A stretch of DNA of 64,000 nucleotides from the NCBI RefSeq assembly GCF_000299415.1, contig NZ_AMPG01000001.1:496001-560000 (forward strand), in the 5' to 3' direction. The notes below the pieces were generated by a model. The model had not been told where the DNA came from. It worked only from the letters and a program-made list of their open reading frames with translations, and did not search any database. This document shows, in pieces, positions 12,665 to 58,694 of the stretch. This DNA is from Candidatus Microthrix parvicella Bio17-1. GTDB taxonomy: Bacteria; Actinomycetota; Acidimicrobiia; Acidimicrobiales; Microtrichaceae. The stretch's first letter is position 1. Each line of letters opens with the position of its first letter. The position numbers and the translations under genes were made by a program.

Positions 12665-13891
12665 ATGACAATCTTTGTGGGCGATGACTGGGCCGAGACC
12701 CATCATGACGTCCATCTGATGAACGACACCGGCGACAGGCTCGCCGCCAAACAGTTTCCTGAAGGACTCGAGGGGATCGCCGGGCTCCACGCCCTGATCG
12801 CCGAGCACACCACCGACCCTGGCGACGTGATCATCGGGATCGAAACCGAGCGAGGCATGTGGGTCCAAGCGCTGATCGCCGCCGGCTACCGGGTGTACGC
12901 GATCAACCCGTTGTCGGTGTCGCATTATCGAGGCCGCCACAATGTGGCCGGGGCGAAGTCCGACCCGGGCGACGCCAAACTGCTGGCGGATCTGGTGCGC
13001 ACCGATCGGCACAACCACCGGCCAGTCGCCGGTGACACCGACCAGGCTGCCGGGCTGAAGGTGCTGGCGCGGGCACACCAGAACCTGATCTGGGACCGGA
13101 CCCGTCACACCAACCGTCTCCGCAACGACCTCCGCGAGTTCTTCCCCGCCGCACTTTAAGCGTTCGAGAGCCTCGCCGATCGTGACGCTGTCGCGGTGTT
13201 GACCAAAGCGCCGCACCCGGACCAGGCCCGACGGTTGTCGGTTACACAGCTCCGTTCCGCGCTCAAACGCGGTGGACGGCAACGGAACCTTGAAGCGCGG
13301 GCCACCGAGATCCATGCCGCGTTGCGTACGCCTCAGCTTGCTGCGCCCCCAGCAGTCGCGGTCGCGTTCGCTGCGACCACCAAAGCGCTGATTGAGGTCA
13401 CTGCTGGGCTCAACGGGGCCATCGCAGACATCGAGCGGGAGCTGGCCACCCATTTTGATGAACACCCGGACGCCGACATTTACCTCTCCCTGCCAGGACT
13501 CGGTGTTGTGCTCGGCGCCCGGGTGCTCGCAGAGTTCGGGGACGACCCCGACCACTACGACAACGCCAAGTCTCGCAGGAACTACGCGGGCACGTCACCG
13601 CTCACCATCGCCTCAGGCAAGAAACACGCCGTCCTTGCCCGACATGTCCGCAACCGGCGCCTCTACGACGCGATCGACCAATGGGCGTTCTGCTCGCTGC
13701 ACACCAGCCCCGGTTGCCGCGAGTTCTACGACCAACGACGAACCGCTTGCGACCTCCACCACCAAGCACTCAGAGCGCTCGGCAACCGGCTCGTCGGCTA
13801 CCTCCACGGCTGCCTCCGAACACGCAGCCCCTACGACGAACACACCGCATGGGCACACCGCCAACCAGCCCAAACCCAGACTGCTGCTTGA
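12665..13891 (+). pseudogene. IS110-family transposase, split by a stop codon
   Basis: The frame is continuous for 408 codons except for one TAA at 13157-13159, where the sequence PAAL-stop-AFESL strongly suggests a Glu codon changed to stop. The N-terminal half carries the RuvC-like DEDD residues (VGDDWAE, GIETERG, AKSDPGDAKLLADL). The C-terminal half carries the Transposase_20 domain with SLPGLGVVLGARVLAEFGD and the serine region YAGTSPLTIASGKK. The ATG has a strong AAGGAGG. Unless suppressed, the product would be a truncated 164-residue N-terminal domain. Confidence 0.88.
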
Positions 13892-56024: not shown

Positions 56025-56531
56025 TCAGCCGTTCCGATTGTCGATCTTGGGCAACGCCACCCGGCCGGTGCGTTGCAATGACGCCACCCCGTAGGGCAGG
56101 AGCAACTGCTCGAAGGTGTCCAGCCGGTCGGGGCGTGCGTCGAGGGCCACGGTGATGGCGTGATGGCCAACATCCAGAATTCGACCGTTGAACACCTGGG
56201 TGAGCTCGATCACCTCACGCCGTCGGTCCGACTCTGCCTTCACCGTCACCAGCATCAGCTCGCGCTCCACCGACTCGCGAGGGTCGAGCTCGGTGATCTT
56301 CAACACGTTCACCAGCTTGTTGAGCTGTTTGACCATCTGCTCGAGAGGAGCCGTGTCGACGTTGACCGTCACGGTGATTCGGCTGAGCCCGGGGTCGGAG
56401 GTGGGGGCCACCGCAAGGGATTCGATGTTGTAGCCGCGGCGGGCGAAAAGACCGGCCACCCGGGCCAGGACACCGGACTTGTTCTCAACCAGCACCGACA
56501 ACACGTGATGGTGCACCTCGTCGATCATCAC
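56025..56531 (-). CDS. ilvN: Acetolactate synthase small subunit
   Basis: 168 residues with an N-terminal ACT domain (VLSVLVENKSGVLARVAGLFARRG, NIESLAVAPT) that binds valine for feedback control, and the second small-subunit domain (ELMLVTVKAE). It overlaps ilvB by four bases (ATGA). Confidence 0.96.
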   Translation of the reverse strand: MMIDEVHHHVLSVLVENKSGVLARVAGLFARRGYNIESLAVAPTSDPGLSRITVTVNVDTAPLEQMVKQLNKLVNVLKITELDPRESVERELMLVTVKAESDRRREVIELTQVFNGRILDVGHHAITVALDARPDRLDTFEQLLLPYGVASLQRTGRVALPKIDNRNG

Positions 56532-58393
56532 TTGATCCTTTCGTCGGGACGAACATTCGGGGCATCCAGGTTCTGGGAAACCACGATCTCGTCGTTGCCC
56601 TTGCCCGAGGGCACCATCGGAAACACCTTCTCGGAGGAGTCGGTGCGGAATTCGATCACCACCGGACGGTCGTCGATCTCGTTGGCCTTGATGATGGTCG
56701 GCGCCACCTCCTCGGGCGATTCAACCCGGAAGGCGACGCAACCCATCGCCTCGGCCCACTTGACGTAATCGGGCAGATCGGGGCTGAGATACACCTCGCT
56801 GTAGCGCTCCTCGTAAAACATCTCCTGCCACTGGCGCACCATGCCGAGGTAGGCGTTGTTCAGGATGGCCACCTTCACCGGGATGCGTTCGGTGGCGGCG
56901 GTCACCAGTTCCTGGGCCGTCATTTGAAAACAACCGTCGCCATCCACCGACCAAACGGTGCGCTGAGGCATGCCCACCTTGGCGCCGATTGCCGCCGGCA
57001 CCGAGAAACCCATCGTTCCCAGACCACCGGAGTTGATCCAGGTGTAGGGGTGCCGGAACGTCCAGAACTGGCTCGTCCACATTTGATGCTGTCCCACGCC
57101 TGAGACGACGATGGTGTCCTCCGGCGACAGGTCACGCAGCTGCTCCAGCACGAACTGCGGCTTCAGCAGCTCGCCCGGCTCGGATTGCTCGTAGGACAAC
57201 GGGAACTTCTCCTGCCATCCGGACACCGTCGACCGCCAGGCCGAAATGTCGGTGGCCACCTCCGCTCCGCCGAGGCGCTCCAGGTCCACCAGCAGCGCCT
57301 CGATCACCTCCTTCGCATCACCCACGATGGGCACGTTTGCGTTTCGAACCTTGCCCAACTCGGCAGGGTCGATGTCAACGTGAATCACTTTGGCCTCGGG
57401 GGCGAACTCATCCAGCTTGCCGGTGACCCGGTCGTCGAATCGGCTGCCCAAGGCGATCAGCAGGTCGCTGCGCTGCATAGCGGTGACCGCCGTGTAGTTG
57501 CCGTGCATGCCTGGCATGCCCAGGCACAGCTCGTGATCGTCGGGGAAGGCACCGCGGGCCATGAGGGTGGTCACCACCGGGATGCGGAGCAGCTCGGCCA
57601 GCTCGCGCAGCGCCTCGGCCGCCCGAGCCTTCAGGATGCCACCACCGATGTACAGCACCGGCCGCTCGGCGGCCAGGATCATCTCAGCGGCCTCACTGAT
57701 CTTCCGAGGGTGTCCGGTGGTGGTGGGCCGATATCCGGGCAGCGAGGCCAGCACCTCCTCGTCGGTGGGCCAACGCCAGTCAAACCAGGCGTCCGGATTG
57801 TTCGGGTCGACGATGTCCTTCGGGATGTCCAACAGCACCGGGCCGGGGCGGCCGGTAGTGGCCAGGTGAAACGCCTGACGCACCTTGAGGGGGATGTCGG
57901 CGGCCAACGTGACCAGCTCGTTGTGCTTGGTCACCGAACGGGTGATGCCAACCGTATCGGCCTCCTGAAAGGCGTCAGTGCCAAGCGACTTGGTGCCCAC
58001 CTGGCCGGTGATGCACACCATCGGCACCGAGTCCATGTAGGCGTCGCACAGTGGCGTGACGATGTTGGTGGCCGCGGGCCCTGAGGTCACCATGGCCACA
58101 CCCGGCCGCCCGGTGGCGTGGGCGTACCCCTCCGCCATGTGACCGGCTCCCTGCTCATGGCGCACCAGGATGTGACGGATCGGACTATCGAGAATGGGGT
58201 CATACACCGGCAGAATGGCGCCGCCGGGCAGCCCGAAGATCGTGTCGGTACCCTCCAGCTCCAACGAGCGGATCAGTGCCTGACCGCCGTTGATGCGCTC
58301 AGCGGCCGGGGGGGCCGATGGCGTGGCAGCCGGTGTCGCTGCTGTGCCTGACGATGATGTGCCTGACGATGATGTGGACGCTGCGGCTTCCAT
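56528..58393 (-). CDS. ilvB: Acetolactate synthase large subunit
   Basis: 621 residues from the ATG at 58393 (GAGGAA upstream). ThDP-dependent: RHEQGAGHMAEGYAHATGRPG with the catalytic Glu, TSGPAATNIVTPLCDAYMDS, GSRFDDRVTGKL (FAD region) and the ThDP-Mg site SVDGDGCFQM to ILNNAYLGMVRQWQ. The first about 35 residues form a Ser/Thr/Ala/Pro-rich extension with a repeated SSGTSSSGT. Its mRNA leader has an attenuator and a leader peptide (58524-58617). Confidence 0.97.
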   Translation of the reverse strand: MEAAASTSSSGTSSSGTAATPAATPSAPPAAERINGGQALIRSLELEGTDTIFGLPGGAILPVYDPILDSPIRHILVRHEQGAGHMAEGYAHATGRPGVAMVTSGPAATNIVTPLCDAYMDSVPMVCITGQVGTKSLGTDAFQEADTVGITRSVTKHNELVTLAADIPLKVRQAFHLATTGRPGPVLLDIPKDIVDPNNPDAWFDWRWPTDEEVLASLPGYRPTTTGHPRKISEAAEMILAAERPVLYIGGGILKARAAEALRELAELLRIPVVTTLMARGAFPDDHELCLGMPGMHGNYTAVTAMQRSDLLIALGSRFDDRVTGKLDEFAPEAKVIHVDIDPAELGKVRNANVPIVGDAKEVIEALLVDLERLGGAEVATDISAWRSTVSGWQEKFPLSYEQSEPGELLKPQFVLEQLRDLSPEDTIVVSGVGQHQMWTSQFWTFRHPYTWINSGGLGTMGFSVPAAIGAKVGMPQRTVWSVDGDGCFQMTAQELVTAATERIPVKVAILNNAYLGMVRQWQEMFYEERYSEVYLSPDLPDYVKWAEAMGCVAFRVESPEEVAPTIIKANEIDDRPVVIEFRTDSSEKVFPMVPSGKGNDEIVVSQNLDAPNVRPDERIK

Positions 58394-58523
58394 GGTGATT
58401 CCTCGGGATGTTGGGAGGGTGGGGCGGTGATCTGGGAGAGGGAGGACGGGAAGGGTGTGACCTGCGGTCGATGTGGTTCGATGGTGAGGTGCTTGAGAGC
58501 GAAGGATACGGCGCCGAAAACGG

Positions 58524-58548
58524 GAACGACCTCCCACTGGGGGAGGTC
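58524..58548 (-). promoter_or_regulatory. ilvB leader hairpin with alternative pairing (attenuator)
   Basis: In the transcript, GACCTCCC and GGGAGGTC form an 8-bp stem (58528-58548). The 3' arm together with the next bases, GAGGTCGTTC, is also complementary over ten bases to GAACGACCTC at 58606-58615 inside the leader ORF. The two structures exclude each other, the hallmark of translation-coupled attenuation. Confidence 0.7.
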
Positions 58549-58584
58549 ATCACACACGCGAACAGAGGGTCTCGGGTGTGCGCC

Positions 58585-58617
58585 TTAGCGCACTACGAGC
58601 AACATGAGGTCGTTCAC
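58585..58617 (-). CDS. Leader peptide of ilvB, MNDLMLLVVR
   Basis: Ten codons (GTG start, TAA stop) including Leu-Leu-Val-Val in a row, as in known branched-chain amino-acid leader peptides. An internal ATG would give MLLVVR. A G-run precedes the GTG, and the start region takes part in the alternative pairing with the attenuator hairpin. Slow decoding when Leu or Val is scarce should change which structure forms. Confidence 0.65.
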   Translation of the reverse strand: MNDLMLLVVR

Positions 58618-58694
58618 CCCCCCAGTGTGCACCGCGGACGGCGCCTTTCACAACCGGGAAGCACAATCCCCTTACTCAACACGGAGGTTTCACC

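Follow-up and report, generated by a model that had tools for sequence, protein, structure and literature searches.

The ilvB locus and its leader

The window analysed here, a 64,000-nucleotide stretch of the genome of Candidatus Microthrix parvicella Bio17-1, carries on its minus strand the genes for the large and small subunits of acetolactate synthase, ilvB and ilvN (Table 1). Before ilvB lies a short upstream open reading frame (uORF) of ten codons, GTG-AAC-GAC-CTC-ATG-TTG-CTC-GTA-GTG-CGC-TAA (58617-58585, minus strand). A sequence-only reading of this DNA had described the leader as MNDLMLLVVR, 192 bp before ilvB. The uORF is present as described, but its start codon is GTG and not ATG, and 191 bases lie between it and the ilvB ATG (58393). 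The uORF is followed by two hairpins, which we call H1 and T and which in the window have one base in common, 58551. The downstream hairpin had been given as 8 bp; the actual T helix has 11 bp, including G-U pairs (GATGACCTCCC/GGGAGGTCGTT), and the T run of the tail behind it is broken up (CCCGTTTTCGG). A third, anti-antiterminator-like hairpin is predicted for the ribosome-free leader of the window, and it leaves T intact. Inside ilvB, we noticed by eye a short repeat (58333-58383) that puts two copies of SSSGT into the N-terminal extension of the protein.

Table 1. Features of the ilvB leader and adjoining genes (positions within the window)
Feature	Positions	Strand	Description	Basis
ilvB, acetolactate synthase large subunit	56528..58393	-		NCBIfam NF005860, 895.2 bits (cut-off 881)
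ilvN, acetolactate synthase small subunit	56025..56531	-	next gene 3' of ilvB	NCBIfam NF008864, 197.1 bits (cut-off 119)
putative promoter	58624..58653	-	TTGTGA (58653-58648), 18-base spacer, CACACT (58629-58624), 6 bases 5' of GTG	position-specific, -35/-10-like signal in a logo of 120 leaders
leader uORF, V(M)NDLMLLVVR-stop	58585..58617	-	putatively leaderless (start codon = transcription start)	sequence, codon positions, logo without Shine-Dalgarno-like column
anti-antiterminator-like hairpin	58571..58599	-	CTCG..GTGCGC (58599-58588) with GCGCAC..CGAG (58583-58571)	predicted folds
hairpin H1, putative antiterminator	58551..58582	-	CGCACAC (58582-58576) with GTGTGTG (58557-58551)	compensatory changes, parse, state dependence
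terminator-like hairpin T	58525..58551	-	GATGACCTCCC (58551-58541) with GGGAGGTCGTT (58535-58525)	folds, parse, double changes
terminator tail CCCGTTTTCGGCG	58512..58524	-	short T run, interrupted	sequence; relatives' tails compared
leader-start pairing of the sequence-only reading, span	58524..58615	-	58615-58606 with 58533-58524	pairing exists, conservation absent

Conservation of the leader across the order

We surveyed the upstream regions of ilvB in relatives of the window's organism; the collection searched held no other genome of its genus. IlvB-like matches at E≤0.001 occurred in all 33 family genomes, some of them as paralogues or fragments only, and matches at E≤1e-180 in 128 of 148 genomes of the window's order. 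The sample came to 149 upstream regions (28 loci of the family, 25 of the order and 96 fetched stretches), after two family loci had been left out, L029 with an incomplete gene and L031 as a distant paralogue. Among the 123 genomes of the order that have ilvB but lie outside the family of the window, G093 and G099 were excluded for an incomplete match. The automatic choice of uORF needed an I/L/V run of three close to the stop codon and was independent of the hairpins, codon choice and promoter; 15 uORFs were set by hand. A uORF was found in 138 of the 149 regions and both hairpins in 132, family and order taken together. No leader was assigned in 11 regions (L027, L030, L070, L073, L119, L121, L124, L128, L129, L136 and L137), some of which have cut contigs or genes and others no recognisable leader; L137 has two hairpins. 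Dropping 6 of the 138 parsed leaders without one hairpin and 3 with H1-T gaps of 9, 9 and 23 bases gave 129, and deduplication gave 121.

The uORFs share a compact design, with 10-13 codons in 90 of the 118 distinct sequences and a median of 12. At codons -2, -3, -4, -5 and -6 before the stop, the share of I/L/V is 81, 97, 92, 89 and 58%, respectively, although the amino acid and codon frequencies are partly selected because the choice of uORF required an I/L/V run. Codon -1 is I/L/V in 17%, and its commonest residue is Thr (50/118). Valine is encoded mostly by GTA, which accounts for 189 of 297 Val codons in the leaders versus 5 of 206 across six ORFs of the window; selection of the leaders was by amino acids and blind to codons. 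If GTA is charging-sensitive, this would agree with the theory that isoacceptors are charged selectively.

The position of the hairpins is equally regular. Counted from the first base of the stop codon, the 5' arm of H1 begins after 0-3 bases in 114 of 121 leaders (5 in the window), and 0-3 bases separate H1 from T in 108 of 132. Only 8 of the 132 have any base common to both hairpins, under a parse that permitted up to 3 bases of overlap. The standard deviation of the H1-T gap is 1.5, versus 4.7 for the length of the H1 loop (129 leaders, the gaps of 9, 9 and 23 removed). In an alignment of 100 leaders, itself fitted to the model, H1 and T together show 165 double-change cells versus 64.8 in shuffles and a covariation of 0.295 versus 0.170, and none of 500 shuffles was as high on either measure. 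The MAFFT alignment A1 of 39 leaders gave 77 double changes versus 44.0, again with 0/500 shuffles as high. For T on the family alignment, 93.0% of cells pair and the covariation score exceeds that of all 500 shuffles, and the count of further pair types is ordinary (238/500 shuffles). T-rich tails follow T in the sequences of relatives. The uORF and the hairpins are conserved and covarying throughout the order, far beyond chance.

We also observed a promoter-like signal in front of the uORFs. In a logo of 120 leaders, numbered from the uORF start, columns -38 to -35 are rich in T and columns -12 to -7 show an A..T pattern. The motif [TC]AnnnT stops 6-8 bases short of the start codon in 70 of the 120, with few occurrences at 0-5 or at 10 or more bases. 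A Shine-Dalgarno-like column is absent from this logo. The fixed distance of the signal from the start codon suggests that the uORF is leaderless, and in the window it suggests transcription from 58617, the first base of the GTG. The sequence-only reading had staked its attenuator on transcription not starting downstream of 58585, and the computed signal indicates a start at the GTG instead. A G-rich stretch 5' of the GTG, picked out by eye as a possible partner of the terminator loop, was dropped because the promoter-like signal places it outside the transcript.

Related elements before other branched-chain genes

A covariance model built from 39 leaders scores the window copy at 54.8 bits and has matches in 73 of 296 phylum genomes at E≤0.05 under strict filters, the window's genome counted. 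An ilvB homologue is present at 29 of the 33 loci drawn from the own-genome and phylum searches (L153-L185). Eleven loci lie outside the order, L176 still within the same class, and 10 of these have the homologue. Within the window's genome, matches at C1:449493 (17.2 bits) and C3:97412 (15.7 bits) have no IlvB homologue nearby.

A further 20 matches were picked by hand and their genes read from the downstream ORFs, mostly by resemblance. On this basis nine precede leuA-like genes (L191, L194, L196, L198, L200-L203 and L205), five precede genes resembling citramalate synthase, cimA (L186-L189 and L199), and four precede leuB-like genes (L190, L192, L195 and L197); L204 is a further ilvB, and L193 has no gene assignment. 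NCBIfam models applied to four of the 20 matched fragments below the curated cut-offs, and named a citramalate synthase, a 3-isopropylmalate dehydrogenase and two 2-isopropylmalate synthases. The leaders before the leuA-like genes end in Leu runs (ELLLT, LLLLT), those before the cimA-like genes in Ile runs (AIIIIR, SIIIIR and similar) and those before the leuB-like genes in Ile and Val (LIVIIS, SIVIIR). The H1-T gap is -3 to 4 bases in 17 of the 18 elements, among the 20, that the parser resolved. Codon content in these putative elements tracks the pathway that each would regulate, which supports attenuation.

One of the leuA-like elements is a second copy in the window's own genome (G000:C6:54191-54285; L202), which lies before a 2-isopropylmalate synthase gene and scores 20.9 bits (E=0.45). 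Its uORF, NTLTGLLLS when read from GTG, has three Leu codons and is accompanied by a hairpin (GGCGGG/CCCGCC) and a terminator-like one (ACCCCCCG/CGGGGGGT). Despite the low score, this architecture and the downstream gene support its assignment as a putative leuA-like element.

Ribosome position and the proposed attenuator

These features make it very probable that the leader is a translation-controlled transcription attenuator of ilvBN. In the mechanism that we propose, transcription would start at the GTG, and a ribosome would load at the 5' end and translate NDLMLLVVR. When Leu or Val is scarce, it would stall on the Leu/Val codons a few codons short of the stop; H1, the 5' arm of which starts right after the stop codon, would then be free to oppose T, and ilvB would be read through. 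With ample amino acids, a ribosome at the stop codon would cover the 5' arm of H1, so that H1 would be barred and T would terminate transcription. Without a ribosome, the 3' end of the uORF would, in this genome, pair with the 5' arm of H1, and T would form. A branched-chain leader-peptide attenuator before ilvB is what the sequence-only reading had proposed, and the conserved uORF with its Leu/Val codons, the conserved pair of hairpins and the promoter-like signal uphold it. A short ORF with regulatory Leu/Val/Ile codons before a pathway gene (138/149 regions) and an intrinsic terminator between leader and gene, recognised by the double changes in T and the T-rich tails, can both be read from sequence alone; the dependence of structure on ribosome position appears in the model, where the probability of H1, P(H1), goes from 0.97 to 0.00.

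In this model the ribosome was represented in 121 leaders by masking positions -20 to +13 around the A site, with five states including a ribosome-free one. Mean P(H1) was 0.97 with the A site at codon -5, 0.74 at codon -3, 0.006 at codon -1 and 0.00 at the stop. Without a ribosome the mean was 0.88, but P(H1) in the window was 0.009. In these modelled states it is H1 that senses the ribosome, being predicted to form upon an early stall in the codon run. Mean P(T) was at least 0.99 in the masked states (up to 0.996) and 0.975 in the ribosome-free state, and in the window P(T) stayed at 0.975-0.982 in all five states. Because T is predicted in all five, equilibrium folding alone gives no switch.

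We sought pairings that would exclude T, namely loop1 x T3, loop1 x T5, H1 arms x T3, H1 3' arm x T5 and uORF 3' end x T3, and none was on average more than 0.2 SD better than shuffles. Mean z scores were -0.17 ± 0.10 for loop1 x T3, 0.21 ± 0.08 for uORF 3' end x T3 and 1.04 ± 0.06 for H1 3' arm x T5; the best cognate pairing was 0.33 ± 0.19 kcal/mol better than non-cognate ones. An antiterminator that excludes the terminator by sharing its bases does not describe these leaders, given an overlap in 8 of 132 order-wide, a single shared base in the window and a mean P(T) of at least 0.975. One possible way for H1 to oppose T when the two abut and so rarely share bases, which we hold tentatively and think somewhat doubtful, is a steric antiterminator: H1 would pack at the RNA exit of the polymerase and stop T from closing its last base pairs, with no competition for bases. 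Positioned by the ribosome, it would serve ilvB, leuA, cimA and leuB with codons matched to each pathway. The short and little-varying gap between H1 and T points to such packing.

Several observations count against an attenuator: T in all states, the rarity of H1/T overlap, the interrupted T tail, the 11 of 149 regions without a leader, and a result from Streptomyces coelicolor, in which, by the account in PMC1262725, altering candidate codons of the ilvB leader left regulation unaffected. The prediction of T in every modelled state, the lack of a T-excluding pairing that stands out and this Streptomyces result would also suit a leader in which H1 is a mere pause hairpin that paces polymerase and ribosome, T terminates constitutively, lowering basal expression, and the Leu/Val codons are of minor importance. 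We consider this unlikely, since the codons follow the regulated pathway, GTA is strongly preferred and, as PMC13236596 describes it, changing LVVI to AAAA in the ilvB1 leader of Mycobacterium tuberculosis abolished reporter induction.

Pairing at the leader start

Ten bases at the start of the leader, GAACGACCTC, are exactly complementary to GAGGTCGTTC, which comprises most of the 3' arm of T and one base past the arm, just as the sequence-only reading had it. That reading went on to propose that the leader start pairs with the terminator 3' arm, so that ribosome loading as well as stalling would decide between termination and readthrough. Taken within the window, the match is striking: a ten-base run arose in 1 of 60,002 base shuffles of leader codons 2-6, the duplex has a z score of -5.2, and the fold in which the pairing is forced (-36.7 kcal/mol) lies a mere 2.2 kcal/mol above the best fold (-38.9 kcal/mol).

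It is less striking against real leaders. We counted the Watson-Crick runs that the first 18 bases of the leader can form with the 3' arm of the terminator (+6), in 121 cognate pairs. Runs of at least 7 occurred in 2.5% of cognate versus 2.4% of non-cognate pairs, runs of at least 8 in 2/121 (1.7%) versus 1.3%, and runs of at least 10 in 1/121 (0.8%, the window itself) versus 0.14%, so that the match is not clearly beyond chance. Compared with base shuffles, the duplex is slightly in excess over the 121 leaders (mean z -0.43 ± 0.11, 12% below -1.64), but the mean advantage of cognate over non-cognate pairs is just -0.16 ± 0.19 kcal/mol. The alignment of relatives that had been suggested as a check shows the leader codons kept and H1 and T covarying, but it does not show the leader-start pairing conserved: across the 26 aligned family sequences, 23 of them distinct, 45.2% of cells pair versus 47.2% in shuffles, 499 of 500 shuffles reach that level, and sliding the register yields 40.4 to 56.1%.

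Predicted folds of individual leaders point both ways. The leader L057 has a 9-base leader-start run and a ribosome-free P(T) of 0.09, its fold losing T, and in L058 ribosome-free P(T) is down to 0.36. In the window, however, P(T) is still 0.976 without a ribosome, and the competing pairing is made by the 3' end of the uORF and not by its start (CTCG..GTGCGC with GCGCAC..CGAG). A stalled ribosome would in any case cover the uORF start. With the pairing not conserved in the family, its forced fold the less stable one and modelled T unmoved, a role for the leader's initiation region is very improbable, and the pairing looks like a coincidence. The L057 leader, as a separate observation, opens with ATGGCGACCTCC, which almost repeats the 5' arm of the terminator.

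Least probable of all is that a riboswitch or T-box governs ilvB and the uORF is incidental: a structured leader does precede a biosynthetic gene, but no Rfam 15 family reached its gathering score at the leader stretch, where three sub-threshold matches at E≤5 were to snoRNA and lncRNA families, and the conserved codons switch with the pathway.

Relation to known attenuators

A literature search combining the window's order with leader peptides and attenuation found no paper, and the order is not named in the titles or displayed abstract lines of the papers listed on leuA and cimA leaders. Searches for branched-chain leader attenuators did bring up the work on Corynebacterium and Mycobacterium, among other papers.

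A close likeness is to the ilvBNC attenuator of Corynebacterium glutamicum, for which the account in PMC11857589 reports the same logic backed by mutation, and to the ilvB-II motif. As described in PMC11857589 and PMC10272879, these have a uORF that starts within about one base of the start of transcription and uses a Leu codon and GUA for control, and an anti-antiterminator, an antiterminator and a terminator 5' of ilvB, with adjoining antiterminator and terminator bases. The description in PMC11857589 has a GCC trinucleotide at which antiterminator and terminator overlap, whereas the leaders of the window's order abut, sharing bases in 8/132, and do not show the boundary-trinucleotide overlap of ilvB-II. 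By the same descriptions, ilvB-II uORFs are usually 15-17 residues long, versus the median of 12 codons here, and the H1 of the order differs in beginning at or just past the stop codon.

The M. tuberculosis ilvB1NC leader, in the account of PMC13236596, likewise has a uORF rich in branched-chain codons, LVVI regulatory codons that include GUA and a downstream intrinsic terminator, and a ribosome at the stop codon has been proposed to mask its antiterminator. That account is backed by reporters, SEnd-seq and codon mutation, whereas the window's leader is inferred. It also treats the two folds, terminator and antiterminator, as excluding each other, whereas the leaders of this order have no conserved base sharing. 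A 2005 comparative study (PMC1262725) reports candidate ilvB leaders of Corynebacterium, Mycobacterium and Streptomyces, which likewise combine short ORFs carrying I/V/L runs with terminators; its genome list has no recognisable member of the window's order. The 'LEU element' before leuA in its account is a pseudoknot, whereas the leuA-like elements of this order have the uORF-H1-T arrangement.

The leaders described here extend branched-chain leader-peptide attenuators of the Corynebacterium and Mycobacterium kind to a whole actinobacterial order, with a reach into other classes of the phylum as judged by model matches near ilvB. As natural variants, they conserve the codons that immediately precede the stop, the location of H1 at the stop, its contact with T and the use of GTA for valine; they do not conserve a base-sharing antiterminator or the leader-start pairing. 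This set of variants makes mutual exclusion of two neighbouring hairpins directly testable.

Elsewhere in the window, the minus strand at 13489-13570 has an Rfam match to Ms_AS-4, an actinobacterial sRNA, at 92.3 bits.
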